This document shows, piece after piece, positions 5,680 to 61,568 of a stretch of 64,000 bases of DNA; the first letter of the stretch is position 1; every line of letters starts with the position of its first letter. The DNA is from Liolophura sinensis (taxonomy: Eukaryota; Mollusca; Polyplacophora; Chitonida; Chitonidae). Below the pieces are notes generated by a model, which was not told the DNA's origin, did no database searches, and saw only the letters and a list, made by a program, of their open reading frames with translations. Location: NCBI RefSeq assembly GCF_032854445.1, contig NC_088300.1, forward strand, positions 14,699,570 to 14,763,569. The letters run 5' to 3'. The position numbers and the translations under genes are program-made.

Positions 5680-5943
5680 TTAGACAGCGTCCAAGATAGT
5701 TAATTTAGGAAGGGCAAACTTGTTTCTAGACTTTATGTCAAATGCATTCTCGTAAAAGTCGAACATGTTGCCTGTCTTTGCCGACTTCCATCCAATCATC
5801 TGCGTGGTTGTTAATGGGTACCGATCGGTAGGATCGAGAGCTTTGACTTTGGGTATCGGGGGCAGCTTGAAACCGAGGCTGTCGGGTTTGTCGGTAGATG
5901 ACGCTCGAGACAGCGGGGATTCCATGGCCAGTATTCTGTCAAG
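5680..5943 (-). CDS. Terminal exon of a small protein, possibly an axonemal microtubule inner protein
   Basis: The minus-strand exon begins after the acceptor TACTTTCAG (ending at 5944), runs 87 codons in phase 0 and stops at 5680-5682. It is hydrophilic and proline-rich (FKLPPIPKVKALDP), followed by RYPLTTTQMIGWKSA and a lysine-rich end. A TT...IGW-R/K-S motif near the C-terminus is known to me from small ciliary microtubule inner proteins such as the C20orf85/CIMIP1 type. The likeness is short, so the family is only a guess. An internal ATG at 5923-5925 could start a shorter 81-residue protein. I found no upstream exon, since the next sequence on that side is a SINE. A poly(A) signal follows the stop. 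Confidence 0.45.
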   Translation of the reverse strand, partial: LDRILAMESPLSRASSTDKPDSLGFKLPPIPKVKALDPTDRYPLTTTQMIGWKSAKTGNMFDFYENAFDIKSRNKFALPKLTILDAV

Positions 5944-5967
5944 CTGAAAGTACATATATAAACAGCC

Positions 5968-6195
5968 GTATATTTATTTATTTGATTGGTGTTTTACGCC
6001 ATACACAAGAATATTTCGCTTATACCATGGCGGCCAGAATTATGGTAAGAGGAAACCGGGAGGGGCCAGAGAGAAACCCATGACCATCTGCAGTTGCTGA
6101 AAGACCTTTCCACGCAAAGCTGGTTTGGAAGCCAGCATCCCAGCGACCGCATTAGTGAGAGGTTCCTGGGTCATTGCTCCGCGTTGGCGTGTTAC
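5968..6195 (-). mobile_element. SINE, nearly full length, minus orientation
   Basis: Starts on the plus strand with the (TTTA)n/TTTGATTGGTGTTTTACGCC tail. The conserved block ATTATGGTAAGAGGAAACC and the reverse complement of the tRNA-like head (CAGCGACCGCATTAGTGAGA) follow. The reading frame across it is a by-product. Confidence 0.8.
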
Positions 6196-11826: not shown

Positions 11827-13620
11827 GAAAATGAGCTATCGAACGTTTAGTGTTTGCTACATTACGGTTTATAACAACGAAGCTGTCGTAACTGGCGCCA
11901 CGTCCGCGGTAACATGAATGCAAGGCACATGTCACCGTTGTAAATCCGCTTGACAACACGCTGTGACAACTCTGCAAAACGATCCCCAGGGTTGGTCGCC
12001 AATATTCCAGTTTAGAACACATTTAGGTCTTTATCAAAAGTTATTTCTAATTGGTACATTGCTGTATAAAATCTGATAACAATTTGGAACAGTGGCATCA
12101 TGTGATGTCATTTTGGAACCCTAGCACCATCAGATATAAATATATGGTTTACATCGGATGAATGATATTCCTTCATATTTATGTAGAAAATTTGTCAACT
12201 TCAGTGTCTCTCGTACTATTCTCTAATTTTTGCGCGGTGCCAATCCACACCACCAAGGAGCTTTCAACAAATTTTCTCTACAACATATCAAAACATCAAC
12301 CTAGCATGACCGACATTTGTAAACTATTATTGTTGCGCTTTGTTACCTTGATAAAGGGTTAAAGGGACACAGAATTGCCGCTTATTGGCTGCTGTGTACT
12401 TATTTTAGTGGTTATATTCAACCGTGATTAAACTCAGGACTCTTTAACCCAGGATGTCCTATCTCCAATGTGAACCAATCAGTGAAATATCCTTATGAAA
12501 ACCTTTACTTCTGGCATAAAGCTCACGACTCTCGGAACCAAGTGTAATAAATGACACCATATGGACATGCAATGTTCCGATTATTCGGAGGTACTCATGC
12601 AACACTAGTGCATGAGGAAACATAGGACAGCTAAAATAACTAAGTTATTTATTTATTTATTTGAAGTAATGATAATATTCCTTTAATCCAGTTGCACAAC
12701 ATTTTTGTAATTTAATTCCCACAACTCTTGTGTATATTAATTACTATAATCTACGTGGTAAACAAAAATCAAGAGTGACAGAAATCAATGAAGACCCAAC
12801 TACCGTGTTTAACGTGTTTCAGTGAGATATTATCGCACGTAATACTTCATCAAAGCGTATTTACTTATTCCCTGTAAAAGAAAGGGGAAAGTTTACTTCT
12901 CACCAGTCTAAAAAGAGCCTTTCAGCTGATCCATGTAGAGCATTTTCTAACATTAACTGGTGTGTAAAGGTGATTTTGTCAGTTATAGCCAACATTTTTG
13001 CTATATCTTACTCCTTTCTGCCTTTTTTTGTCTGGCGTTTTCAGGCGTTCGTAACGTAACTCCGGTGACAATTATCAAGGAGGCTGATAACTGGCGTAAC
13101 CTTATGATGCCTTAAATGGATAAAGAATTGATTCTGACTGGTTGATTTGAAAGAGGCGGGTAGAGGCTTTGCATGGACTTACGCTGAATTTTAGGTATGG
13201 CAGATTTCTTCAATTTCTTCACTTTTAACCAATCAGTGTCGATTCAGTAGCTTATCCCTTAATACGGACGTTTCTAGTTCGAACTTTTTGTCGTTAAAGG
13301 TAAAACAGTACAATTGTACCATGTGACTTGTGAAAATGATAGGTAGCCTTTGTTGACATTAAAATGCCGATCACCTGTCTCAGCGTTTCTTCAGGAACTT
13401 CTCATGTTCCCAAACGTTCAGCTCCTCAGTTTTCTCCATGGTTCATCTTCTCCAAATTACTTTTTCCGAACCTTTTCCCGAGGCCCATGTTAGAAAATGT
13501 GAACAAAAGCAGTTACCTAACATTTTTCACATTTTTCACATGATACAGTAAGACTTTTTTGACCTATTGCGATAAAGAAATTCGAACTCGAAACTCCCCT
13601 AACGTGCAACAGCCTCCACG
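11827..13620. other. Non-coding stretch
   Basis: No gene or known repeat recognised. There is a (TTTA)n run near 12,644-12,663. The segment around 12,358 (TTAAAGGGACACAGAATTGC) looks like a MITE terminus without a visible partner. Confidence 0.45.
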
Positions 13621-13626
13621 TTTATT
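13621..13626 (-). terminator. Candidate poly(A) signal of the ligase-like gene
   Basis: TTTATT on the plus strand reads AATAAA on the minus strand, 324 bases beyond the stop codon at 13,950-13,952. It is the nearest canonical signal I see. Confidence 0.4.
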
Positions 13627-13949
13627 AGTACGCTGTATTCCGTTACTCACACTTGTTGCATTACTGCAGCAGTGGTATTTCACTAAAGCCGCTTATATTT
13701 CCACGTAACGAAAATTTTACACATACAAATTCACAGTGATCCACCAAGGCTATTAATACTTTGTTCATCGACTCTATGGGCGTCAGGGGAGATAATCCAA
13801 ATGGTCATTTGGTTCGTTACCTTTCTAGAGTCGCTACTTGGTCTCACAGTCGCTACACAATGCGAATTACTGAGTTAATACTGACGCATAATCAACTTTT
13901 GGCATGCGTTTTACCCCATGGCGTGTCATGATGCTGTACGAGTACAATG

Positions 13950-16900
13950 TTACAATCTATCTAACAAATGAGCCTTCACAATATCATACTGAATATTCTC
14001 TGTCACCTTCGAGTCTTTTTTGTACTCTGGATGATTCAGGACAAGTTCTCGGATTCTCCGGGCTACAGTCGGACGCTCTCCTACAATACCAAAAGTGGAC
14101 GAGATTGTGATACACCTCACAGAAAAGCAATATTTAATCACATATTGTTCAAACAAATCTCCATTGTATAATTAAAATATCTCTCTCAAAAAAATAAAGA
14201 AACAAATAAATAATCATTCAGTGACAAATGAAGAACGTACAAAAGAAAAGAACCGTTTAATCATTTCATTCATATTACGGAAGGTGTGGCTTTATCGACG
14301 GTGAATTATAGAAATAACAAAAAAGAAATTGGAATCGCTGAGTCCATTCTAGAAAAGATCACCAACACATATGATTTTGATTTTCATCCTATCAGAAGGT
14401 GCAGTCAGCCAATCAGCTGTAAGGACGTATCGACCACTCACCAGAAGCTGTTTGAGATATCATGTGCAGATAGCTATCAACTTTCTGTCTGACAGCCGTC
14501 TGAAGTATTCTTGTGTCCAGAAACTGGTGGACCAATGACAGCAGACCTGGGTTCATTGGCTGAAAACATGAAAACAAAAGCATTAAACAAGAAATAAAAC
14601 ATCAAAGTTTTAGCTTTTAGGAGTGTTTTTAAACTGAAACTTACCAAACATAGGCTATTGTCATTATATTTTTTTATAATATTCTCAGTTTCCCGGTGGT
14701 TTTATCAGACTGTGTCGTTTACTATTTGTCGTGTATTGAAAATGACATACATTTTCAAAATCAAAGATAAAAATAATTCTTATTATTGATATCAAAACTT
14801 ACCCGAGGAGATATACGTGTAATTAAAAACATACAGGTTTTTCATTAACCTGTAATGCTTGGTTATGCTTAAAAAAATAAAATAATAATAAATAAACCTG
14901 TATCGAACAAAGAGGCGAATATACATATTAACACACGTACGACCCAGAACTGGGCGCTTAGAGATGGTTACTTACACTCCCATTCACAATGTCGTCAATA
15001 GACATTTCCTCATACTTGGCAGAAGATGTTTTCGAGTCTGAAAGGTCAAATCACGTGGACTGTAAAGAGATTTGGTTTCGCAAGGTAATGGATAAGAATT
15101 GGTACGAATAAATTCATAATATTATGTTCAAGAGTAAGTATTACGTAAATATATAACTCATATTATTTACAATGATGTGTTCTAAGGTAAGGTAATTTAC
15201 CTATTGTTTGTTTTTAAATCATAAATCCTAGACGTAATCACCCATTATCGCAAAAGATCTGGAAGAGATGCATTGAAACTTAGCAGTAGTCAAGTTGCTT
15301 AGACCTTTAAACACGAATTAAATAACCATATGAAGTTAACTGATACATTACGTAGCAGCTTCTGCTTTTGTGAGGACCACACCCACGCTTCTAAACCTCG
15401 TCATTTACATATATTTCTAGACTAGCTTCACAAAAAGTACTTCTCGAACATTTCAGTTTCAGGTAACCCTCTAAAGACCATGTTACAATGCCACCTATCT
15501 GAGGCTGACAACTTTCATCGGATCTTTCTAGAAAGCAGTGCATTAATTTCAGAGAATTTAGGCTTCTTTTTGAGTGCAATTTCCGTTAGTCACCAAAAAC
15601 GTTTCTCCGGAAGTGAAATGCCTTTCTCCTGACAGCATCTTGGCTCAAAGATCTCTGACAATTTTCGTGTACCTGGAATAAACACAACCAAACCGCATCT
15701 GAGACCAACACTATTCATGGTTACAATATTTGTGATATATGCATAAGGAATAACAATCCAGTCTTGGCACAAATTGTGGTAGAAGGTTGTAAACCGTATT
15801 GTTACTTGATATATCATATGACCCGAAACGAATACGCATTTTGTTAAATAATGTAAATCAGGCATGGCTTGATAATGTAGTATGCTGCACGTCATTCCAT
15901 CGATCACCAACAACATACTACCTTTTCGACCTCCTGTTAAGAAGAGATTAATCTCAGCAATCCATTCCACGTTTACATGAATTGTCTGTGAGCTTACATG
16001 TCGTACTTTTGTATTTTCTAAATATGTGTAAATGGCCAAAAATATCAGAAACAGATAAATCTATAAGCCTATAATTTATTCACCACTAACCTTTGACATT
16101 GAGATAAGAAAATTGAGAGAGAAGTGTCTGATGGTCCGTGTGAGGAGAAAGATAAATACCGCATAGGCGGCGTTCTCAGAATCTGTCGGCTGCACCTGAT
16201 GAAAAGAACTGGAAATACTAAGACAAAAAAACTGTGAGCAAAGTGTTGTGATCAAGAATTACAGCCATTACTCGAGGTTATGGTATGAAATGAATCCGTA
16301 CAGATATACATGTACGTGTGCTAACATTTCAGGTCTTTCAGTCATAAATGTTTTCTTGCCATACACGCTATGGCGGAAATTTGTTTTGAAACTAAGCACA
16401 ATGCCCAAATAAAAATCAAAATAGTCGTGCTTAGCAAACTTCTGGTCAGTTCTCTGTAATTCTTAAATTGTTTTTCGCTCATGAAGACGATTTGTATTTG
16501 AACAATTTTAACCTGGCATTCTTTAATATATTACGGCAGGATCATGCTATTTTATTTGACTTATACGACTGTGGCCAGCATTATGGTGGGAAGAAATCAG
16601 ACAAAGCCCGGACGAAACTCACGACCATCTGCAGGTTGCTGACTGACCTTCCTACTTACTACCACTGACAGGCGGAACTGAAACTGTCCCTTTAAAGACA
16701 CATATACATGTACTTGTCACGGATTGGTTGATAGATTCATCAATAACGTTTCTTCTTGATTTTAAGAGTAAAAAAAAAAACTGATATCAACATAACACAG
16801 TAAAATGTTCAGAACTCACAGCCATTGGTCTGAACTCTACCCTCCATCCCAGTTTTCCGTCAGCTTGTGGGATCTTCAGACGGACATATGGCCACACAGT

Positions 16901-19900
16901 CGAGTTCATAGTCTAGGATAACAAAGATTTAAATCCAAAGATTATAAGGTGAAACACTTTTTGTTTTAGAAGTTGGCTTTCCCAACAGCAGAAAGCGCAA
17001 GTCGTTTGCATAAGTACACAGGCATTTCAAATGATCACGAACTACATCGTTTAGGGTCTTTAAGTTTGAGAAGGAACAATAGTGAAGCGTATTAACATAA
17101 ACAATTGTTAATCGTTAAATTGAAAGAATAGCCAAAAAATGCAACGGTTCAGACTGAACGTGACCTAAGAAAGTCTTGAAAATAAGACACTGATGTTTCC
17201 AAAACCGTTCAATTCATGTTCTTTGAAAAGCCGTGGAATGTTGCTTGTCAGTAAGACCTGACATGAGGATCATTAAAGTTCTCATAGTGACCTCAAATAG
17301 TTGTGTGCTGTCTTTCTCTTGGGTCATCATCTCATTTTCTTTCACGGCATAGAAGGCATGAGAAAACAAAATGGCAGTGTGCATCGCCATCCCCATGTCA
17401 ATCCCTGGTTAAAACAGAGAAGGCAGAACATATTGTATCCCGTATACCGTAAGTATATGTGTGTAGGAACACTTCTATTACCTGAGAATAAACCTGCGGA
17501 TGGCCGTGGGTTTCCAACGGGCTCTATGCGGCTTCCCTCCAGCAATGCTATAACGTACAAGTGAAATATTCTTGAGCATCGCGAAAAACACCAATCAAAT
17601 AAATAAACAAATACTACGTCATTACAGGGTTGCTAATTTTGATCTGGGGTCTCCATGGCTCGGTTGGTTAGCGCCATATCTCAGTTTAATGAACCAGGAG
17701 CCTCTCACCCATGCGATCGCTGTGAGTTCAAGTCCAGCTCATCCTGGCCTCCCTTTCCGGTACGTGGGAAGGTCTGTCAACAACCTGCAGATGATCGTGG
17801 GATTCCCCCGGGCTCCGCTCGGTTTCCTCCCACCACAATGCTGGCCGCCGTATATTTATTTTTGTTTGTTAAGCAATTCACATACCTTTTCTGACGCAAG
17901 TGTGATGGACTGGTGCATTGTAAACCAACTTAAGGTCATTATAGTGCTGGCCTTCATCGCTTAAGTACCAAGGGACCAGTCCAGATCGGGGCAACATATG
18001 TCTCACTTCACCATTCGCGTCAACCTGAAATACCAATAGGTCAACTGCATCAGTGAACACTACATAATTATGGTTACTTTACCTATCCTAAAATGTCTGT
18101 ATGTACATATGTATGTTTGAGGTTTAACGTCATTCCTGATATGTCAGGATCTCTTGGCTACAGTTGCACTTAAAACTAGACAGGAAGCTCTGTCAGCAAC
18201 CTTCTGATGACTGTGGACTGTCAGTTTTCATGGGCGGTATTCCCGGCTTAAACTAATGACTTTTGGCAAGTTAGTGACGAGCTCACGTACGTACATGCAC
18301 ACCGCATTGGTGGAAGTTTGCACAAATGGCCACACAAGCGGCATCGACTGACTTTTGTCACCAAAGCCCCACGTGTAGTGAGAGCGGAGGAATCTACAAA
18401 TCCCTAAACCTACGGTCGGGTTTTAACTCGCATTTAAACTCGCATTTAAATCGCATTTCCCGTGCGATTTCGATCGAAAGGCAAGCGCATCTATAATTTT
18501 AAGCCACGTACTCCTGAGATTGGTGAGGAAATAAAGAGGAAAAAGGCTTACCACAGGCTTTCTCTCCTCTTCTGTACGGTCATCCTGTGCCTGCAAAAGC
18601 ATCCCTAACCGGGAATCGTTTTGTTTAACAAGTCCATAAGCCACTGGTGTTGCGACAGTAAGGCAAATCTAAAATAAAGAAAACGTTATTGCAGGAACAA
18701 GGATTCAAAATCTTGAAATTTCCCACGTTAGATTGACTATAGTACACGTGTACGCGTGTACCAAGGACCGCCTTTAAAAAGCTGCCCAGACTTGCGTTCT
18801 GTATGTTTATGCGCACCAAGATCCCGCATTTGAATAGCCAGGCCCATGGCGACACTTTATATGTATACACATACAATGAATCCTTGTCGTCCTATGACTG
18901 AAAAATTGTTAAGTACGAAGTTAAACCGCAATCATTCATTCATTGTAACGTGCAACGGCAAATAGTTAACAAGATATCTCCGTGAAATGGAGAAACGCTT
19001 AAAATAAATGGGACCTAAGCTGTCTAGCCTGTTGTTCATTCCTGATTTTGCGATCATGTTTTGTGGGCAAACCGGTTTTATCCATGCATTGCAAGAGAAC
19101 AAAGGTCATTTCCGTTTGGACAAGAGTCGTCATTGCTAGGGAAAAGACTCACAGTTAAAGGCAAACATATACTGACATAAGCTATTTGCCTGATGAAAAC
19201 TATTTAATAATGTTTAGGAAAACAATTTCTTAAAAAAATAAAAATAAAAAAACTCTCAAAACATTGAAATTAGTGATGGCTTCTCCTGATCACATTGCGA
19301 CCATTGGCGTCACATCATATCTTTGCCATATTGTTTTAATACACATATACTTCATGGACCGTGTAATGAACTACTGCAAGTTGAAAAAATATGGATATGA
19401 CGCCATTGATATCTACCAGAACCAAATAGACCACGTCGAATCCAATGCACTAAAAGCATTGAAAGTAGGAAAAAAATAAATGAAAAATGGAATTGTTTTT
19501 GCTGCACACTGTTTACTAATGGCCTTTCACGTGGCGTCTACTTCATTTTAATGCTTTCTTTGCGTTTAACGATAACATACCAGTACTGGGGAGAGAACAG
19601 CGAGTTGATCGTGTAGATATCTGGCTTCCTGTAAACTCTTGGCCTGAATGGTGACCTGAAGACCGCTACAGCTCGTTGCTATGGAAATACCACCTATGGT
19701 TACGTGATCTGAGTCACAGGAAGCGCCATTATTTCCATGGCAACTCTGGGTGTTTACGTCCTGGAATACTGCCAACACAACGTTTTAAGAGAAATCTGTC
19801 ATTATTTCATGTTTTCCCCTTACAAATGGACACAGTTGGAATGGCAGAAATTCTATATGCCCAAGTTAATAACTTGTCAAACGACACAGAAAGATGCCTA

Positions 19901-22900
19901 TGAAACGGCTTAAGTTTTACAAACAGTTCATTTCCATCCACCTTCGCACATCGTTACATGTTCTTGCAAACCACAGATATTATGCAACTGTAAAAACACA
20001 GATTATTTGCATGCAAAAAATTGGATAAATAATAATGAAGATGTATTTATTGATCAGTCGATACCATATTTACCTGACATATGAAATCCATACGGTTTCC
20101 CTGTCCTGTTTTTAATGCCAGTTGCAAGACGTCTGAAAATGGTAACAACTTATAACCAAATGGTTATTTTATACTTTTTTAAAGGTAAGACAGGTTATTA
20201 AATATTGTATATATATGAAGTCAAATTTAATTCATTTGAAGAGAAGAAAACAAGTCTCACATATATCGTCGGTTTGATTTGCTAGCCAGAGAGTTGTCAA
20301 ATGAATTCCAATCTGTACTTTGCTTTATCCCATTAAGTTTGTCGTCCATTTCACGGCCGAGTCTGAAAATCAAACATTTATAATCCTTTAAAAAATTCTC
20401 TTTTGGTATAAAGTGTCGACCAACTATACATTATTTGCAGGAGCACATGACAAATCGTACCCTTCCTCCTAGATGTGGTAAACACATATAGTAAAATGAA
20501 GAAAGAAACACAGACATGTATAACTCTGCCCATTATCAACTTATGACAACAGGTAATATATGATCTATTAAAAGTAAAGTTCGACTTGACTGAAAGTGGG
20601 AACGGTTACGACTTATCTGAAATTGGGTACCGGTACAACTTATCTGAAGTAGGGTATCAGTACGACTTAGCTCAAGTTGGGTACGACTTGGCCTGCACGG
20701 GTACGAGTTTGCATGGGTTAACCCTATCCCTATTTTAGTTCCTAAGATCATTTTACCATATCATTTTATCCAACATTCTGGCATTACCAAGCCATTGAGG
20801 ATGCTAAAACATGAAGATAATGTTTTTTTTCCAAACTGACGCAGCTCCTGTAAATTTGTTCGTAGGCTTCTGGTGGTTCAAATGGTTAAACCTATGGCAA
20901 TGTATTGAGAGTTGTATTACGTTATAGATGATAACGACTGGCCACTGGATACGCTTTGACTGTACCAGAAATCACCATGAAACCAGAAATCTAGATACGT
21001 CTATGACTCAAAGAACTACAAGGGATTATATTAGTTGATCTTTTTCAATGAACTGTTGTTACTACATATTTAACAAGCAATAATTTCATTCATTATTTAC
21101 CTGGATGTTTTAAGTTTTATTTTTGTCAAACGACGCCGTTAGTATTTTTCAGTATCAACCATTATTCTACAGATTAAAGTAAAATCGTAAGCACACGTCC
21201 CATATATTGCAAACAAAATGGCGATATAGCCAGGTTACCTTGGAAACGATGCCATCGTTAGAAGATAGGTATTTGGAGGCAGCAACGATTGTACTACTTT
21301 GCGTCTGTAAACGAGAAAAGCCTGAATGTTGGATAGCACCAAGGGTTCAACTATGGTTTAAATCTCATACATTTCTTTTCCTTTCTCACCCAGAAAGGCC
21401 AAGAATTATAAGCAAAACACCTTGCGATTATTGAACTGGAAAGCCCATCTTAGCTGACGTCTGGTATACGAATGTCTGTTTCGAAAAAATTCAAATAAAT
21501 TCAAACAAAATCCACTGACAATTATTTTAAATTATTTTCAAAAAAAAATCTCTCTATATTTTGCAAAAAAAAAAAGAAGAAAAAAAAAAACACTGAAAGA
21601 TTGAAGACTATCCCAACCACAGACATATTTATACCTTTCTTCCATATTGTCTTCTACTGCTCCCAGATCTTCCAGTCTTCCACTATATGGTCGAGGCGGA
21701 ATCGTCTCCAGTTGAAATTCGGAAAACTCCGGCATTATAAAGGGAGATAATCTGAAATCGACGCATGTGGCTCAATGTGTTTGTTGTAAATAGTCAATTC
21801 TAATTCATGGTAACATGTTACTTCATTAACTAACCAGGAATACGAACTTTTAATGCACCAAAAATGAAAAAAACTGTTCTCATCATAAACTTTATGGTTA
21901 ACATTAACCAAAAACAAAAAACACCGAAATACACACACACATCAGGTTTTATGCCACTAAACACATACGTGTATAGTCTACGTAATTTCATCACTGAAAA
22001 TTCACATATACATGTAAATCTATAAACGCATTCGCAGAATGGACCTTGACATGAACTTTTTCAAGTAATGTGACGGCACCGATACCCTCTGGGTCTCTAC
22101 AGACGACCGTAGAATTTAATATTTTAAAATCGTTTTACTCGCTTGGAGAAACTGTAAAGAAATAAATCGAACTATTTCCTGGACAGTGTTGAATGGTCTT
22201 TCATCTGATATATACTTCATTTTAATGTTTTCTTTGCCTTTAATGTCGATCTCATGTAGTAAATTTACTTAAAAGCGCCTTATTGATCAACCGAAAATTA
22301 TCATTTTTGATCCAGAGTGGCTTTTTGGTGGCTTATTACTAAGCATCAACCTCGTTTACGACCATGAAACGTTTATCAAGGCGTTTCGACCAATTTTTAT
22401 ACTTCTGACCCGGAATTTTACAAAATTATGCTAGGACCTTGAAATTTGCACTTTCTTATGGTGCGTCCTTGGGGCCGATTCTCCACCTTACCATACAACG
22501 TCCTTTGGATAAATGATAGAGACAGTGATGCATGCCGTGTAATAAAGACAAGGCAAAATCATCGCTGACTGACCTGATCATTGCAGAAATGACAGCCTTT
22601 TGAAGCCGACCATAATCTTTAATAATCACATGACATGCAATAAACTGTTCCATTTTGCTCTATTGAGGAAAGGTCTTAAGCTATTAAAAATAGTGCACAC
22701 CTGCCACCCAAAATGCAGTAAACACTACTTCGTATTACTACCACACGTCGTTTAATTATTTATTATTTTCAGCATAGATCAATCCATGTTCACCTGAAGT
22801 AGTATGGGCGAAACAATTCGTGTTGAAAAAGAAGAAGAAAAACGAAAAAAAACGAAACTCAGACACCCAACGATGGCAGCGAAAAGATTTTGAGTTTGTC

Positions 22901-25800
22901 ACCATTTTCTCTTTTTCTACAACATTTTACGTCCTATTTAAGCAAAATGGTCGCTGGATGAGGCAAGCGATAACAGCCTGTTACCCCTATATGTCCCCAC
23001 TTTTGGAACTTCCCATTAATGTGTCATTGTGAAGCATGTCTAATAAAAGTGCTGCCGTAATATGAAAATCTTTTCCTGATAAGCAAGCATTATGACTTAA
23101 TGCAAAGGTCAGAGATAGAATACAGGCCATTTACATAAACAACGACAAGGTAAAACGACAAGCGCAAAATCAGTCAAGATCCATGTACTAGGCTTCGACG
23201 AAGAACGTGGAGGGTTATCTGATACAGAAACAAAGCTCCTAATGAGAAAAATGAAGGAAAAAGACCCGCCACTTTGAAACAGCACGAAAACTGGTGATGT
23301 GTTATCTTGGTGCCGCAGGCGAATCCAACACATCATCAGTGAACTATGACACTTGTCAACGAAGTATATACAATGTCACAAAATAAAACTGCGTTACCTG
23401 ACATAAACATACACCACATCATATCTGTGCTATAATATTCCTTTATTTGTGATGTCATAGCGTTCAATTTTATTGTTTTCACAAGTACACTCTTGCGATC
23501 GCTATGAGTTGCAATCCAGCCCATGTTGGTTTATTCTCCAGTTGTACATGTGTTGGTCTGAAGGAAGCTGTGCATCGTCATGGGTTTCTCTCGGGCTTTT
23601 CCCGGTTTCCTCCCACCATAATACTGGCCGCTGTCGTACACGTGAAATATTCTTGAGCGTAAAGCACAAATCAAAACAATAAATAAATAAGTCCACTCAG
23701 AAATGACATGCAATCGTGAATGACTGGGGTTTGAGTTAATACTTCGACTTTTCATTACCAACATTCGAGTTTTATGCCCTTAATGGCAAACAGGGCAACA
23801 TGAACGACAGATCTGTTAAAATATTTGTAATAATAAAAATATTGTATTTCAGCTAAAATATAATATTTTTCAAGTGAACCATAATTGTGACTCTTATAGT
23901 GACATTTTTGTGAAGTTTGATTTACTTCTTATCAGTAAAACTTAAGTGCTGGCCTTGGTCTTAAACGTGTCATTTAAAATTTCTTCTTTTCTTAAAATGC
24001 ATTTTTTCAAACCAAATTTTAGGTTCAATGGAGTATACTATTTTCTCTAAGTCTCAAGACAATTTTTAGTTATTTTTCATGCAGACAATCAATGTGGATT
24101 CTATTTGCCTTTAAATATCTGTTCCTCAGTGCGTCCGTGACATAGCGCTATTTATAAGCAAACAACTGTGAATTACTCATTTTTTCGTGTACTGTATGGA
24201 GGTGCTGTATTACATGTAAGTTCTTCCATTCCAACACGTGATTTTCACACAGCACACCCCCTCTATACATTGACTGCAAAGTGTAGACCTATGTTAAAGC
24301 GAAATGCGCTGAAATACATGTAAAACTCGGGGAAGGAATCACCTTTATTACCTTACCCATTGGCCTGTGCTAGATTCCTGGCAAGTCGCAGAACGTGTGA
24401 TGCGCACGGCAACAGGCTGGCTGACTTCTCTTCTTCATTGGTACTGACAGTCAGGTACTCAATCTGGTAAGTTAACAGTAAAGTTATTCTGGCTTAGCAA
24501 GCTTTCAGATAGATCACGTCAGTCTCCGCTCTAACACGATGTCTAAATAACTGCACGGCAGCCATAGTTAAATAAAGCGCAATAACGTAGCTTATTTGCC
24601 GCTCTGTTGTCCATGATTTGCGTCAATTCCCTTAAAGGATACGTGAAAAGATATTATAAAACATGTATAGAACATGGTATTTAGGAAAATACATAAGAAA
24701 GAAATACATATAAAAATACATAAGAAATTTCAATGAAAAAATAATTTTCATTTTTGAGGAAATGATGCCATCGATGAACATATTGTGAACGCGGGGCTAG
24801 TTTAGCGCTCCCCAATTTGAGCCCCTCGAGTTGTTTTGACAGCTATCGCCGTTGACGTCAACACCAGCAGATTACTGAATTTCCGGATTGACCTCTGGGG
24901 CCTTAGGAAAACCTAGGTTAAAGCCAATTTTATGCCCCAAGGAGAAAGCCGAGAAGCTTTTTCGTACTTTTATGTTTTAAGCCACCTCGTATATACCGTA
25001 CTGAGAAATGCAAATCGAGCGTTCCATGTATATTCTTTAATTTGTTAAACAAAAGATCGCAGTGTGGCGTTAATGCCCTAGCAACAGGAGGCCAGGATTT
25101 CATAGAAGCGCCCAAAATTTGAATGTAAAGTGGCATGATTGTCACTCTTGAAAATAGAGATGAGAAAACCCCGATACTTTACCTAAAATGGTGTCATTTC
25201 TCTCACTCTTTGTTATTGAAATCAACACGGTTGTCTACACTATGACACTACATTTCGTTTTAAAATATCACCTCCCATAACCACAAGACTTGCGCAACAT
25301 GCAGAAGAAAATTTCCTCAACCATAAGCAATTTGTTTAAAGTTATTCCTGATGAATTAGTTCCTTTTCGTTATAAACAGAATCTAGATTTGCCTCTGCAT
25401 TTCTGGATATGAATATTAACAAATCTATGTGTTCACCTCCTTGTTATCTTTAAACATATCTTATCTTTAAATAAGAAGACATAAGTATACAAAATATGTA
25501 ACCATCATCTGATAATGCGTATGATGGACGAGAGAAGTTACATGCATCGTTTAACATAACATAAACTCAATGCGCAAAGTCTAACAGTCTCCTTAAACAA
25601 GCCATTCATCGTGAATTGCTGGTGAAGAAAAGACTGGGTACTGCAAAAGATGAACAAAAGATGAAAATTACCTCATCGCCCCAAAGAAGGCCTTCGCTTT
25701 GAAGGTCCTTGTGTTTATGGTATATGTAACAGAACTGCTCGACGGCATATTGCACGGCTCGCTCTGGGAGTAGGGCTGCGTCGTCGTCCGAACTCATCAT
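13950..25800 (-). CDS. Divergent glutamate-cysteine ligase catalytic subunit paralogue, 15 exons
   Basis: Homologue of the enzyme that joins glutamate to cysteine with ATP, the first step of glutathione synthesis in the cytosol. Coding exons in transcript order: 25672-25800, 24357-24463, 21635-21751, 20261-20362, 20074-20132, 19581-19768, 18552-18668, 17886-18024, 17292-17404, 16820-16912, 16091-16195, 15594-15672, 14976-15037, 14442-14559, 13950-14080. All joins keep phase and give 552 residues. Family landmarks are WGDEIEY (40-46), the PEF...LE pair with Glu87 and Glu94, LQVTIQA...EARYLHDQL (208-227), DDRTEEER (263-270), GWRVEFRP (379-386), TDSENAAYAVF and the C-terminal ERPTVARRIRELVLNHPEYK. 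Human GCLC has about 637 residues. This protein is shorter by about 25 before exon 5, about 15 near exons 12-13 and about 30 at the C-terminus. The animal NCCLQVT motif reads CSGLQVT. The donor of exon 9 is GTCACT, which is weak. The first ATG is 25,798-25,800, with a second ATG next to it. Whether it still uses cysteine is unknown. Confidence 0.88.
16549..16668 (-). mobile_element. SINE fragment in intron 10 of the ligase-like gene
   Basis: Contains GGCCAGCATTATGGTGGGAA and ACGACCATCTGCAGGTTGCT. Both the tail and the tRNA-like head are missing or decayed. Confidence 0.7.
17490..17612 (+). mobile_element. SINE 3' end in intron 8 of the ligase-like gene
   Basis: CCTGCGGATGGCCGTGGGTT through AAATATTCTTGAGCATCGCG and (AAATA)n. 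It is followed directly by a second copy in the same direction. Confidence 0.75.
17652..17860 (+). mobile_element. SINE with intact tRNA-like head in intron 8
   Basis: Head CATGGCTCGGTTGGTTAGCG (A box), then GAGTTCAAGTCC (B box), the conserved CCTCCCACCACAATGCTGGC and truncation before the A-rich tail. With the previous fragment it forms a head-to-tail pair that ends about 25 bp from exon 8. Confidence 0.8.
20578..20715. repeat. Short tandem array of about 27-bp units in intron 3
   Basis: About five diverged units of the type GGTACCGGTACAACTTATCT-GAAGTA. It produces a spurious open frame on the minus strand. Confidence 0.65.
22395..22530 (+). repeat. Unclassified interspersed repeat R2, copy 3, in intron 2
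   Basis: Shares CTTGAAATTTGCACTTTCTT and GGGGCCGATTCTCCACCTTA with the copies at 8.8 kb (minus) and 9.6 kb (plus). Confidence 0.5.
23490..23693 (+). mobile_element. SINE, diverged, in intron 2 of the ligase-like gene
   Basis: GCGATCGCTATGAGTTGCAA (decayed B box), then TTTCCTCCCACCATAATACT, GTGAAATATTCTTGAGCG and (AAATA)n. Confidence 0.75.
24780..25110 (+). repeat. Unclassified interspersed repeat R3, copy 1, in intron 1
   Basis: The core AAGGAGAAAGCCGAGAAGCT followed by TTTTCGTACTTTTATG recurs at 42.3, 48.3 and (inverted) 49.8 kb. This copy and the 42.2 kb copy also share an upstream part (AGCGCTCCCCAATTTGAGCC, GTTGACGTCA). Confidence 0.55.
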
Positions 25801-28340: not shown

Positions 28341-28553
28341 TTAAAATTTATCTGCCCGCCAGAATTTTTTTTTTATCTCGACTCCTGTCAGCCCGGCAAA
28401 GATTTGGCTGTGCTGGGTGGGTATAAAGCCCTTCCGTCTTGTGGCGTGAATCCACGCTTTCCTGTGGGCCAAATCGTCTGGAAACTTGAAAAAAGTAACT
28501 CCAGGGTTCTTCGACGACCTATTTTTACAACCGTATGCAGAACAGCAAACCAT
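28341..28553 (-). pseudogene. THAP zinc-finger domain, N-terminal part with decayed second half
   Basis: From ATG 28,551-28,553 on the minus strand the frame reads MVCCSAYGCKNRSS, NPGVTFFKFP, KAWIHATRR and PTQHSQI. This is the first half of a THAP domain, with the first cysteine pair, the conserved Pro and Trp and the basic stretch. Where the second zinc pair (C-x2-H) should follow, the frame continues FAGLTG, so these ligands are absent, and it stops after about 70 residues. No good donor lies at the break. THAP domains bind DNA and occur in P-element-type transposases and in host proteins. This is most likely a transposon relic, though a missed splice or an assembly error is possible. Confidence 0.65.
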
Positions 28554-29504
28554 TTCGTGGAGAAATTCGATATTCTTGATGTGACTTGTGTGGCTTTTTA
28601 ACACTGAACTAAATGGCTAAGCTCTGACAGCTCGTGAAGGCTGGACTTATATGACGTGATTCGCCGCAGACTACCGAGTGTTGGCGGAAAAGTACATGAA
28701 CCCAGCCTCATTATCTAGCGGTTTTAATGCCATGTTACTCAGATTACTGTACTTTTTTCAAGTATTTTTTTAAACTCAATTTAACAATATATACAGGGGT
28801 AGCTAGTTATAAATAAATAACCGGTTTAGACACCAATCTTTTAACACTGGAACAGGTTGAAGTATACAACTTTCTGTTGCGTTTTACGTTTATGTGGTGT
28901 AAGCAGCTCTGTGAAATTCATAGTTATTAATTCAAATATAACATTATATTCTTTTGATATCTATTCTTTTAGCATCCAAAAATAGAAAATGTGGAGTTTT
29001 CATCATAGTGGGAATATGGGACAATCTTAGTTACATGAATGTTTTTCTGTTTTAATCCCCACAAACCCTCACCGTACGCTATTTTGGTGTGTGTTATACA
29101 TATTAATCTGATAAACGAAAAGAATAAATAATGCACAGCCACATATATGTGAATATAAACCCACAGAACTGCTTTTTGTGTACAGTATCGAAACTATGAT
29201 GCCATCACAAATATTTGTAAGGGCCCTTCTCTCGAGGTGCTGGGTTTGTACACAGAATCTTCAGATCTCTCATGACACTGGTGACAATAAAAAACCTCTT
29301 GACATGTGGCAGATATGAACTATTTTCAACGGCACTACTATAACCTACAGCAAGCAATGACCCGTCATATCATGTGTAACCTGTTAATTGTTTTAGTTAT
29401 CCATTTTGTGGAATTGGCCTTGTGACTATTGAGCTGAAACTTCCTTACTGGTTGACGGCTGGTATACTAATGTCTGTTTCGATTATTAGATCATTTCAAA
29501 TTTA
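28554..29504. other. Non-coding stretch with a dispersed repeat at its end
   Basis: No gene seen. The segment at about 29,425-29,495 (TATTGAGCTGAAAC ... CTGGTATACTAATGTCTGTT) repeats 21,429-21,485 (TATTGAACTGGAAA ... CTGGTATACGAATGTCTGTT), so it is a dispersed repeat adjoining the MITE that follows. Confidence 0.45.
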
Positions 29505-33239: not shown

Positions 33240-34590
33240 TAAATTAGATTAATGTTCAATACTCTTTGGAGAGCGTGATTTTCATCAAATAAATGACCAG
33301 TACTCCATGTTGAGCATGGTTTACATCATGTGATTGTCCAGTTGTCCGTCTGGGGCGTGATTTTCATCAGATAAATGTTCAGTAATCCGTGTAGAGCGTG
33401 ATTTTCAACAGATGAATGTTCAGTACTCCGTGATGTAAATCAGATAAATGTTCAGAACTCCGTGTAGAGCTTGATTTTCACCAGATCAATGGTCAGTACT
33501 CCGTTTAGGGCGTGATTTTCAACAGATGAATGGTTAGTACTCCGTGATGTAAATCAGATGAATGTTCAGAACTCCGTGTAGAGCGTGATTTTCACCAGAT
33601 CAATGGTCAGTACTCCGTTTAGAGCATGATTTCACCAGATCAATGGTCAGTACTCCGTTTAGAGCTTGATTTTCACCAGATGAATGTCCAGTACTCCACG
33701 TAGAGCGTGATTTAAATCAGATGAGTGTTTAGAACTCTTTGTAGAGCGTGATTTTCATCAGATAAATGTCCAGCACTTTGTGCAGAGCGTGATTTAAATC
33801 ATATCCATGTTCAGTTCTGAGTGTAGAGCGTGATTTTCATCAGATAAATGTCCAGTACTCCGTGTAGAGTGTGACTTACATCACATGAATGACCAGCACT
33901 CCAAGTAGACCATGATTTAAATCATATCCATGTTCAGTTCTGAGTGTAGAGCGTGATTTTCATCAGATGAATGTTTAGTACTCTTTGTAGAGCGTGATTT
34001 TCATCAGATAAATGTCCAGTACTTTGTGCAGAGTGTGATTTAAATCATATCCATGTTCAGTTCTGAGTGTAGAGCGTGATTTTCATCAGATGAATGTTTA
34101 GTACTCTTTGTAGAGCGTGACTTACATCACATGAATGACCAGTACTCCGTGTAGAGCGTGATTTAAATCATATCCATGTTCAGTTCTGAGTGTAGAGCGT
34201 GATTTTCATCAGATAAATGTCCAGTACTCCGTGTAGAGCGTGATTTTCATCAGATAAATGTCCAGTACTCCGTGCAGAGCGTGACTTACATCACATGAAT
34301 GACCAGTACTCCGTGTAGAGCGTGATTTAAATCATATCCATGTTCAGTTCTCAGTGTAGAGCGTGATTTTCATCAGATAAATGTCCAGTACTCCGTGTAG
34401 AGTGTGACTTACATCACATGAATGACCAGCACTCCAAGTAGACCATGATTTAAATCATATCCATGTTCAGTTCTCAGTGTAGAGCGTGATTTTCATCAGA
34501 TAAATGTTCACTACTTCATGCATGCAGAGCGTGTTTTTCGTGAGAATAATCTTCTCCGTTCAGATTGTGATTTATATTGAGTGACTGCCC
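33240..34590. repeat. 41-bp minisatellite with higher-order structure, about 32 units
   Basis: The monomer is GTAGAGCGTGATTTTCATCA-GATAAATGTCCAGTACTCCGT. Variants with TTTAAATCATATCCATG and with CTTACATCACATGAATGACC alternate with it, giving roughly 123-bp three-unit blocks in the second half. A period of 41 is not a multiple of three and the array is not coding. Confidence 0.9.
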
Positions 34591-36904: not shown

Positions 36905-37690
36905 GTATGACACTTCAAACATGCATCAGCGTATGCATCGACAGAGACATATGTTACGCTTTCTACATCAGACTATATGTGACACTTCAAACATCAGCGT
37001 ACCCGTATGTGAAAATGTCGGCGTAGATGTATGTTATACTTTCTACACCGGACTATATGCGACACTTCAAACATCAGCGTACCCGTATGTGAAAATGTCG
37101 ACATAGACGTATGTTATACTTTCTACATCAGACTATATGCGACACTTCAAACATCAGTGTACCCGTATGTGAAAATGTCGACATAGATGTATGTTATACT
37201 TTCTACACCGGACTATATGCGACACTTCAAACATCAGCGTACCCGTATGTGAAAATGTCGACATAGATGTATGTTATACTTTCTACACCGGACTATATGC
37301 GACACTTCAAACATCAGCGTACCCGTATGTGAAAATGTCGACATAGACGTATGTTATACTTTCTGCATCAGACTATATGCGACACTTCAAACATCAGTGT
37401 ACCCGTATGTGAAAATGTCGACATAGATGTATGTTATACTTTCTACACCGGACTATATGCGACACTTCAAACATCAGCGTACCCGTATGTGAAAATGTCG
37501 ACATAGATGTATGTTATACTTTCTACACCGGACTATATGCGACACTTCAAATATCAGCGTACCCGTATGTGAAAATGTCGACATAGACGTATGTTATACT
37601 TTCTACACCAGACTATATGCGACACTTCAAACATCAGCGTACCCATATGTGAAAATGTCGACATAGACGTAAGTTACACTTTCATCGACG
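36905..37690. repeat. 80-bp minisatellite with three-unit higher-order pattern
   Basis: About nine units of 80 bp that contain GACACTTCAAACATCAGCGT and ATGTTATACTTTCTACACCG. Two unit types, with CTACACCGG or with CTACATCAG/CTGCATCAG, follow the order B-A-A-B-A-A from about 37,120, a 240-bp higher-order repeat. The outer units are more diverged. Confidence 0.92.
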
Positions 37691-44494: not shown

Positions 44495-45240
44495 ATTTGA
44501 TTTGATTTGTTCCAACCATAACACTGGCTGCCATCGTATAAGTGAAATATTCTTGAGTGCGGCGTTAGACATAAATGAAATAAACAAATAAATGAATAAA
44601 TAAATGGCTGTGTCGTCTTGTATTAGCCGTATGCCCGCATTATGACAAGCCAGATACAAACAATTGGCTGGGGCGTCTTGTCTTGGCCATATGCTCGCAT
44701 TATGACAGGCCTGATACAAACAATTGACTGGGGCGTCTTGTCTTGGCCATATGCTCTCATTATGACAGGCCTGATACAAACAATTGGCTGGGTCGTCCTC
44801 GTCTTGGCCATATGCCCGCATTATGACAGGACTGATACAAAAATTGGCTGGGGCGTCTTGTCTTGGTCATATGCCCCCATTATGACAGGTCTGATACAAA
44901 CAATTGGCTGGGGCGTCTTGTCTTGGCCATATGCCCGCATTATGACAGGACTGATGCAAAAAATTGGCTAGGGCGTCTTGTCTTGGTCATATGCCCGCAC
45001 TATGACAGGCCTGATGCAAATAATTGGCTAGGGCGTCATGTCTTGGCCATATGCCCGCATTATGACAGGCCTGATGCAAATAATTGGCTAGGGCGTCTTG
45101 TCTTGGCCATATGCCCGCATTATAACAGGCCTGATACAAACAATTACACCCACGGATGATCGTGGGTTTCCCCCTGGCTCTACCCGGTTTCATAATGCTG
45201 GCCGCCGTGGTATAAGTGAAACACCTACCAAATAAATTAA
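44495..45240 (+). mobile_element. SINE sequence interrupted by the 60-bp array
   Basis: SINE 3' sequence stands on both sides of the array, both plus-oriented: 44,510-44,606 (CCAACCATAACACTGGCTGC to (AAATA)n) and 45,150-45,240 (CACGGATGATCGTGGGTTTC to AAATAAATT). These are two separate tails, not one element split in the middle. Confidence 0.7.
44600..45150. repeat. 60-bp minisatellite, about nine units
   Basis: Unit TATGACAGGCCTGATACAAA-CAATTGGCTGGGGCGTCTTG-TCTTGGCCATATGCCCGCAT, with point variants and a few one-base length changes. The period of 60 keeps several frames open on both strands. These are artefacts of the period. Confidence 0.92.
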
Positions 45241-59500: not shown

Positions 59501-61534
59501 ACCAAATTAATTACGCCATATTAAAATCGATTAAAGATACACAAATGTACCCAATTTACTATACAAATACATGCGTTGATTTGATTACCGGCACTGATCA
59601 ATCGAGACGAGCGAAAATACTGGCTAGAGTGAGACTCGAACTCATGACCTAGGTTCCAGTGTCACCCGGGTCAGTATTTCCATTCGTCTGGATAAATCAG
59701 TGATAGAAATTATATCTACTCGTATTATTCCTTGGCGATTATTGCAAAATACATACGCTACCTCACAAATATAATAAATGTTGCCGCATTTATATCTAAT
59801 AAGCTAAAATAACGACCAAACACAAGATCAAGCACGAATAAAATAAAATAATATGGAAAATTCAATATCAATAATAATAGCAATGAATCTGAACACATTT
59901 CATGCCGAAGTGTACGTGTTTGTGGGTAATTGCTTAAATAATAGTTTTTAGGGTGAATATTTTTCTTCCAAAACTCATCTGCCTGTCGTTTTACTAAGCA
60001 ACTATATAGGTTTTTGATTCGAAATATATACATATACATGCATGTTCATTCGACAAAGGCCTCAACTGTTGCAATGTCTGGGCGGACACTCTAGAGAAAC
60101 GTCCTCTCAATGCTGGAAAATTGTATCAGTTTCTGTAGAAATTTCTTCACGTGAAGTTAAACGGTAACATTTCAATAGCAGTTTTAAGATGCGGTTTATA
60201 ATCAAGTACTCCAGAAAACACGCCTTCGTTTCTGCTGGGGATCAGCTTATACATAGATAAACAGGAAACAATGGTGTTCAGTGTTGACTATGTGAGGCGG
60301 ACAGCGCAGGGATACAGACCGCGGATTACTGCTCCATTCACCATCGAATGACGGGATTTTCTGCTCGTGTTATTTCGCTACTTTATCTCGTTTGATGGGG
60401 AGAAAATAGTTGGGATTCAACTAAATCATACATACAAAAATTGCGTTTCAAACCGCGAATGTGCCCAGAATTTAAGTGTGGCGGCATCAGGGAACATAAC
60501 TTTGATGGAATGTTCTCGTTTAGCAAACAAACTAGTTTTCTTATAGATCTTCTAGACTAGCAAGGGCACAGCGAAGGGCCAACAGGGCTCTACGGGCGAT
60601 TGTAGTGGGTAAAATGAAAGACGTGCCGGACAGAGAAAGACGACATAGGGGTTTGATTAAAAGTAAACAGGGAAAGTTTGTCTACTGTATCGGGGCGGGG
60701 CAGAATAACTGCGTATGGTTTTCACACCAGCACTATACTTAGTATTTGCTGTAATTTACAACTTACGCTCGAGTAGGATTGGGCAAGTGTGGAGTCCGGT
60801 CCCTCTGGCGACGGTTCTTGAACCAGTTGCTCACTTGAGTCAGGGTCAAGCCGGTTTTCTTCGCTAGATTCCGTTTCTCATCAGGGGTGGGGTACCTGTT
60901 GTGTTTATAACTGTCTTTGAGCACTTGTCTGGATTTCTCTTTAAAGCAATACACAGTCTCTTCACCGTCCCAGATCGTCTTGGGCAGGGGATATTTTCTC
61001 CGCAGTCTGTATTTGTCAACAGCCCCCAAAGGCCTTCCCCTTAACTTCTGTGCCTCCATGTAATGAGCCTTGTACCAAATCTGCTGCAAAAACGTGTGGT
61101 TAGAATTATCAAAACTGTGGCTCTCTAGGATAGCATACAGCTCCCTGAAGGCTCCACGGTGAAAAGCAACAGTTGCTCTTGCCTTTAAAACAGCCTCGCT
61201 ACCCCGGAGCAACTCGCTCGGCGGGTAGGGACCAGAGAAATTTGGCCAGTCTGTCAATATCACCTTTCTGTTGTAGAGCCTCGCAAACGCACGCCACTTG
61301 TTCAGGAGAAAAAGTTAAGTTTTTCCCCGAGAGAAGTTGAGAAGACCCACAAGAATCTGTTTTGTGGAGATCGTTAGATTCGACACTGCTCTGAGAGAGT
61401 TCCTGTAAAGTTGTCCTAGTGGGTGGGGAGGGTGATGAAGGGCTGGGTATACACCCGCTCACACCCTGCCGTAAACCCGACTCCTCTATGTTTCTCATTG
61501 CTGACTCCATATTCACACTCTGCATGATTTTCAT
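47595..61534 (-). CDS. Six4/5: Six4/5-class SIX homeobox transcription factor, two exons, frameshift in exon 1
   Basis: A nuclear DNA-binding developmental regulator. Exon 1 is 60,767-61,534. It starts at ATG 61,532-61,534 and holds a Ser/Pro-rich N-terminus, the SIX domain from about residue 75 ([20 protein letters not shown]) and the homeodomain ending [38 protein letters not shown] and [13 protein letters not shown] point to Six4/5 rather than Six1/2 or Six3/6. The reading frame breaks between FLWSLP and [10 protein letters not shown] at about 61,220-61,225, where one extra base in a CCCGCC run sends the frame to TAG. Removing one base gives the normal family spacing. The donor GTAAGT is at 60,761-60,766, phase 2. 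The proposed exon 2 (47,595-47,844) follows TATTTACAG and fits that phase. It adds 82 residues (LPLLKNEP, His-rich FDHHHLHH) and the stop. Exon 2 is likely but less certain than exon 1 (about 0.5). Without the extra base the protein is about 339 residues. Confidence 0.85.
48200..48485 (+). repeat. Unclassified interspersed repeat R3, copy 3
   Basis: CCGGACTGTCTACTGTGATC, then CCAAGAAGAAAACTCAGAAG and CTTTTTTGTACTTCTATATC. The inverted copy at 49.8 kb shares the CCGGACTGTCT end, suggesting a common terminus. Confidence 0.55.
48586..49035. other. GC-richer island in the Six4/5 intron
   Basis: Non-repetitive and GC-richer than its surroundings, within about 1 kb upstream (transcript sense) of the proposed exon 2. 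No splice-bounded frame. A candidate regulatory element by composition only. Confidence 0.25.
49730..49845 (-). repeat. Unclassified interspersed repeat R3, copy 4
   Basis: In reverse complement: CCGGACTGTCTGCTGTAGCC, CCAAGAAGAAAGTTGAGAAG, CTTTTTTGCACTTTTATATG. It lies directly beside a SINE. Confidence 0.55.
49853..50115 (-). mobile_element. SINE, full length, minus orientation
   Basis: The most complete copy: (TTTA)n tail, GATTGGTGTTTTACGCCGTA, GAGCTGGATTTTAACTCACA and the head complement GCTAACTGGCTAACCAACTG AGCCACGGAGGC. It can serve as the family reference, at about 260 bp. It lies in the large intron of the homeobox gene. Confidence 0.88.
50590..50910. promoter_or_regulatory. Candidate intronic enhancer with T-box and E-box motifs
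   Basis: A GC-richer, non-repetitive island. It holds AGGTGTG at 50,649-50,655, TCACACCT at 50,705-50,712 and 50,821-50,828 (T-box half sites), and E boxes CACCTG (50,708), CAGGTG (50,742) and CAGCTG (50,858). The motif density is suggestive. Function is inferred. Confidence 0.3.
52080..52560. promoter_or_regulatory. Candidate intronic regulatory island
   Basis: A non-repetitive stretch with TAAT- and TGAT-type homeodomain motifs (ATGATTATACACCC, CTCATTATTATTTATG, GACTAATG) among GC-richer segments. There is no coding frame. Confidence 0.25.
52700..52940. other. GC-rich block in the Six4/5 intron
   Basis: Contains GTGCGTGGCTGTGCTTGGAA, GGGGCGTGACTC and GAGCTAGGTGCGGCCGGAGT. Its GC-box-like content could mark a promoter or enhancer. 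No transcript structure is visible. Confidence 0.2.
53000..58660. other. Large AT-rich part of the Six4/5 intron
   Basis: No gene or known repeat copy recognised. GC-richer blocks lie at 53,130-53,360, 54,150-54,290 and 55,070-55,490. Scattered frames below 102 residues have no motif. Confidence 0.4.
58670..59040. promoter_or_regulatory. Candidate intronic regulatory island near the homeobox exon
   Basis: A GC-richer, non-repetitive island about 2 kb from exon 1, with GTCTAATAACGGCCTAATCG and ATTGAATTATCCGGG. No open frame with splice sites. Confidence 0.25.
59580..59690 (-). mobile_element. tRNA-like SINE relic, minus orientation
   Basis: The reverse complement contains the B-box-like GTCATGAGTTCGAGTCTCAC followed by TCTAGCCAGTATTTTCGCTC. 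The sequence around it does not fold as a tRNA by eye. Confidence 0.35.
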
Positions 61535-61568
61535 CACGCCGTGGACTTTTGTCAGGATGAATGGAATC

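Follow-up and report, generated by a model that had tools for sequence, protein, structure and literature searches.

Animals are usually credited with a single gene for catalytic glutamate–cysteine ligase (GCL). Cys553 of human GCLC is presumably important for the binding of GCLM. Among the sequences in the PDB, that of GCL from Saccharomyces cerevisiae (3ig5, 3ig8, 3lvv and 3lvw) is the only one related to the protein described here at E up to 0.01. The yeast enzyme aligns over chain residues 25–640 with 29.9% identity and 190 bits, against 453 bits for the canonical GCLC of the same chiton. A review (PMC6875399) gives Cys553 of human GCLC as a target of modification by 4-hydroxynonenal. A duplicated housekeeping ligase of the glutathione pathway whose biochemical activity diversified within an animal lineage is reported for the glutathione synthetase-like paralogues of plant-parasitic nematodes (PMC5919673). 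The nematode case differs in its enzyme, which is glutathione synthetase (GSS), and in that its copies are extensively replicated and secreted; it is a precedent only for changed activity after duplication. In an oyster transcriptome report (PMC4892480) three GCLC transcripts are listed against one regulatory subunit and two glutathione synthases, and the GCLC transcripts may be fragments or isoforms. The term ‘cysteine ligase catalytic subunit-like’ occurs in four papers on shrimp and trout. Among the matches listed in a literature search for chiton GCL or GCLC duplicates, no title or abstract concerned a GCLC paralogue.

Gene model

The window, by which we mean the whole stretch of 64,000 nucleotides of chiton DNA that was analysed, carries a ligase gene on its minus strand (25800..13950), with 16 exons that encode a protein of 574 residues. 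Both this model and that of the canonical GCLC gene discussed below were assembled manually from genomic DNA alone, guided by splice sites and by homology. All 15 introns are of the GT-AG type and the frame of 1725 nt runs without an internal stop or frameshift. The first-pass annotation of this DNA had described a multi-exon gene of the GCL type with intact splice sites, which agrees with our model, and the landmarks it named (WGDEIEY, EARYLHDQL, DDRTEEER and GWRVEFRP) are all present in the translation. Its count of 15 exons and 552 residues has to be corrected, as it overlooked exon 4 (21239..21304, minus strand, as are all exons below). This exon of 66 nt encodes RKVVQSLLPPNTYLLTMASFPR and is in phase; its deletion from our model gives exactly 552 residues and no internal stop. 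We regard exon 4 as real by homology because the canonical gene has, at this place, an exon of equal length and phase that ends in the same FPR motif. The 15-exon model, which leaves it out, was rejected. An extra exon at about 17552–17490 was also considered and rejected; it has no counterpart in the canonical gene, where the homologous exon is the 113-nt exon 10.

Exon 1 (25672..25800) begins MMSSDDD and ends LLWGDE in phase 0, and exon 2 (24357..24463) continues with IEYLTVS, bringing the second Glu of the paired Glu. A segment of strong divergence follows exon 4 in exon 5 (20261..20362). Exon 6 (20074..20132) has the canonical length of 59 nt. Exon 12 (16091..16195) contains VQPTDSENAAYAVF, exon 13 lies at 15594..15672, and exon 14 (14976..15037) is a variable linker shortened to 62 nt from 107 nt in the canonical gene. 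The last exon, exon 16 (13950..14080), ends in NIQYDIVKAHLLDRL and the stop codon and is 159 nt (53 codons) shorter than its canonical equivalent. A possible polyadenylation signal, AATAAA at 13621..13626 on the minus strand, lies 324 nt beyond the final coding position; it is a consensus match only, the nearest of five such hexamers in 12500–13950. Scans of the window for tRNA genes and Rfam families gave no match. Contamination of the assembly was considered and is thought unlikely, the window sitting inside an 82-Mb contig.

Family membership and the canonical gene

The window protein matches PF03074, the Pfam family GCS of eukaryotic glutamate–cysteine ligases, with 332.2 bits (cut-off 25) and an E-value of 6.3e-99 over profile positions 10–368 of 372. 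Other Pfam families gave no match in this protein at E up to 1. A canonical GCLC gene, also of 16 exons, was located in this genome on a different scaffold (C3:10976308-11012064). It encodes 667 residues, scores 579 bits against PF03074 and is 62.7% identical to a provisional sequence of human GCLC, which stands for the human protein in all comparisons here; the window protein is 34.8% identical to it. The existence of this separate canonical gene makes the window gene a paralogue and not the orthologue, as had been proposed.

The genome search covered 609,464,459 bases in 632 contigs. With PF03074, 16 candidates were scored and 11 matched, all within the window and C3 loci; a protein search gave 21 matches, 20 of them at these two loci and one on contig C1 at an E-value of 2.2. 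These searches score the best candidates only, and a very diverged third copy could escape them. Pattern matches in other genome contigs (88) and in viral contigs (55) included no relative confirmed by tblastn. GSS (six matches) and GCLM (three matches, with a provisional query sequence) were each found at a single locus, which gives no hint of a second full pathway.

Two tandem arrays overlap the canonical gene. The 3′ part of its exon 15, together with the donor site, forms the first unit of an array of 9.4 copies of 127 bp that extends into intron 15 (L012:3131-4328; C3:11009131-11010328). An array of 3.6 copies of 67 bp lies over the last codons and the stop (L012:6041-6280; C3:11012041-11012280), and the C-terminal end of canonical GCLC that it overlaps may be variable.

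Comparison with canonical GCLC

The exon–intron comparison was made between the window gene and the canonical gene of the chiton only. The two share 16 exons, with all 16 exon phases equal, and each of the 15 introns has the same position and phase in both; seven exons are identical in length (66, 59, 117, 139, 113, 93 and 105 nt). This indicates that an intron-bearing gene was duplicated at the DNA level. The two proteins also have in common the PF03074 domain and the eight presumed ligand residues described below, and their identity is 34.0% over 570 aligned residues. The window protein is 93 residues shorter than the chiton GCLC and 63 shorter than the human sequence used (637 residues), figures that replace an earlier estimate of about 85. 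Relative to chiton GCLC it lacks the N-terminal MGLL..G.PL.W, the equivalent of Cys553, the IRDP of HLFIRDP and the second Cys of CxC, and its C-terminus is shorter by about 50 residues.

The strong divergence remarked upon in the first-pass annotation is borne out by the low identity and by the loss of 115 of the 235 columns that are invariant among yeast GCL and the GCLC sequences of chiton and human. Part of it was nevertheless an artefact of the earlier model, since the overlooked exon 4 carries the FPR|(L/I)G segment. The paralogue keeps the other 120 columns; random expectation for 235 columns is a mean of 13.4 kept, with a maximum of 27 in 1000 draws. In the maximum-likelihood tree the branch of the paralogue measures 1.62, that of chiton GCLC 0.34 and that of the human sequence 0.21. 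With its long branch, yet 120 invariant columns retained against about 13 expected at random, the paralogue is faster evolving but constrained. Between the window and canonical genes pN is 0.474 and pS 0.740; the latter is saturated, and both are averages over the two branches rather than values for the paralogue alone. The excess of pS, the unbroken frame and the 15 GT-AG introns are in line with the earlier argument against a pseudogene. Judged from its sequence, the paralogue is real, intact and old, and shows signs of weaker but real purifying selection.

Residues kept and lost

Thirteen positions of yeast GCL that presumably lie in the active site were compared. Ten of these (Glu50, Glu52, Glu96, Glu103, Cys264, Gln268, Arg313, Trp445, Glu470 and Arg472 in yeast numbering) are kept in the paralogue, and Cys266, Trp314 and Tyr362 are changed to Gly, Leu and Ser, respectively. 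Eight of the thirteen, namely Glu50, Glu52, Glu96, Glu103, Gln268, Arg313, Glu470 and Arg472, are presumably ligands of metal, ATP or glutamate. By alignment to yeast all eight are retained, pairing in that order with Glu43, Glu45, Glu87, Glu94, Gln231, Arg276, Glu405 and Arg407 of the paralogue. Glu87 and Glu94 sit in exon 3 (21635..21751), which contains PEFSEFQLETIPPRPYSG. Exon 7 (19581..19768) runs from VFQDVNT to SCSGLQVTIQAKSLQEARYLHDQL and holds Gln231 as well as Gly229, which occupies the position of yeast Cys266. The neighbouring yeast Cys264 is kept in the paralogue but is Asn in the human sequence used. Exon 8 (18552..18668) begins ICLTVATP and includes DDRTEEER, where Arg276 is retained and the adjoining Trp is replaced by Leu277. 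In exon 9 (17886..18024) Ser309 stands where the SRY motif has its Tyr (Tyr362 in yeast). Exon 10 (17292..17404), containing GIDMGMAMHTAILFSH, is where HLFIRDP has lost its IRDP, and exon 11 (16820..16912) ends in LGWRVEFRPMA with Glu405 and Arg407.

The position of human Cys553 falls in exon 15 (14442..14559); it is Gln517 in the paralogue, Cys557 in canonical chiton GCLC and Glu590 in yeast. As yeast also has no cysteine here, the loss of this residue alone does not prove new regulation. The N-terminal MGLL..G.PL.W is common to yeast GCL and to human and chiton GCLC; in the 3 kb upstream of the paralogue, neither M.LL nor P[LF].W was matched in any of the three frames of the coding strand.

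The invariant columns are lost unevenly along the chain. By yeast residue number, the paralogue keeps 3 of 14 in region 1–43, 23 of 31 in 44–155, 12 of 50 in 156–267, 14 of 20 in 268–305, 21 of 50 in 306–445, 29 of 40 in 446–535 and 18 of 30 in 536–667, where the borders were set after viewing the profile of kept and lost columns. In a test of clustering that uses no borders, the observed level was unmatched in 5000 permutations.

Age of the duplication

The paralogue is about equally distant from chiton GCLC and from the provisional human GCLC by overall identity. At 190 gap-free columns where these two differ, it agrees with the chiton sequence in 32 and with the human sequence in 36. The best of the three possible quartet trees places it outside both; the other two are worse by 3.4–3.6 log units and are not rejected (p-AU 0.18–0.21), and the quartet is limited by long-branch effects, by the provisional nature of its human sequence and by the chiton being its sole mollusc. 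In simulations in which the paralogue was sister to chiton GCLC, the true grouping was recovered in 45 of 60 replicates with an internal branch of 0.05 and in 55 of 60 with 0.10, the tree with the paralogue outside appearing in 9 and 3 of 60, respectively. When the simulated tree had the paralogue outside, this was recovered in 59 of 60. We thus lean, weakly, against a recent chiton-specific origin from these sequence comparisons, and the description of the gene as lineage-specific in the first-pass annotation finds no backing in the near-equal identities or in the best, non-significant, quartet.

Proposed function

Our preferred reading, to which we assign a probability of roughly 0.5, is that the window gene arose long ago from GCLC by duplication at the DNA level and encodes a putative gamma-glutamyl ligase with an altered acceptor side or regulation, probably independent of GCLM. 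This duplicate of the catalytic subunit would have been kept alongside the canonical gene under the reduced purifying selection noted above. Its protein would bind glutamate as an ATP- and Mg-dependent ligase and activate the gamma-carboxyl as an acyl phosphate, which would be handed to an amine; cysteine may still be the acceptor. The enzyme would probably work alone, needing no disulphide with GCLM, and its acceptor-side or regulatory surface would have changed. Such a change is suggested by the combination of retained presumed ligands with the loss of the Cys553 counterpart and of the greater part of a conserved block. Catalysis, independence of GCLM, the change in acceptor or regulation, and expression are all properties that we infer for the paralogue from its genomic sequence. 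The three changes among the thirteen presumed active-site positions, the missing IRDP and the long branch weigh against this reading; the long branch also fits relaxed selection or a pseudoenzyme.

The gene may instead supply a second, ordinary cysteine-specific GCL for a given tissue, stage or stress, its surface having evolved under relaxed selection with loss of the GCLM contacts. This is a possible though less probable account. Retention of the eight presumed ligand positions, good conservation of yeast region 446–535 and the finding of one GSS and one GCLM locus all sit well with it, but the en bloc loss of segments invariant in the yeast, human and chiton sequences, with 12 of 50 columns kept in region 156–267, exceeds what surface drift alone would give. 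A regulatory relative with little or no catalytic activity, binding for example glutathione, GCLM or GCLC, would explain the very long branch and the changes at Cys266, Trp314 and Tyr362. We consider such a pseudoenzyme quite unlikely: full retention of the presumed metal, ATP and glutamate positions is not expected long after catalysis was lost, and the missing Cys553 equivalent counts against a role bound to GCLM. Very unlikely indeed is a recently silenced pseudogene whose frame has not yet broken. Under neutral drift at 0.02 substitutions per site an open frame was kept in 22.7% of 1000 simulated copies, and at 0.1 substitutions per site in none of 1000 simulated window coding sequences; but the complete set of GT-AG introns, the absence of frameshifts and the coding-like GC content by codon position (0.54, 0.38 and 0.47, with the 8-kb blocks that contain the gene averaging 0.38) are at odds with a young pseudogene.

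A bolder form of the duplicate hypothesis, which we hold to be doubtful, is that the gene represents a second animal GCL branch, split off before the human–mollusc divergence and kept in chitons, that acts as a gamma-glutamyl ligase for an amine other than cysteine. If this were true, animals would own a gamma-glutamyl ligase outside glutathione synthesis. An intact second copy that retains the presumed catalytic ligands, yet has lost the Cys553 counterpart and the greater part of a conserved region, provides a natural experiment for telling the parts of GCL needed in catalysis from those behind acceptor choice, feedback and control by GCLM.

Surroundings of the gene

Of eight segments scanned, the nearest recognised one upstream of the paralogue is a THAP domain (28344–28616, minus strand, 39 bits). 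A gene of the SIX homeobox class is located at 60766–61567 on the minus strand, with an SIX1_SD domain (120 and 36 bits) and a homeodomain in two overlapping open segments. At 5683–5973, again on the minus strand, there is a weak match to LLC1 (PF14945) of 25.1 bits, under the cut-off of 27.3. Long minisatellites are found in the window at 33246–34515 (units of 41 bp), 36938–37683 (80 bp), 44598–45145 (60 bp) and 1–415 (42 bp).
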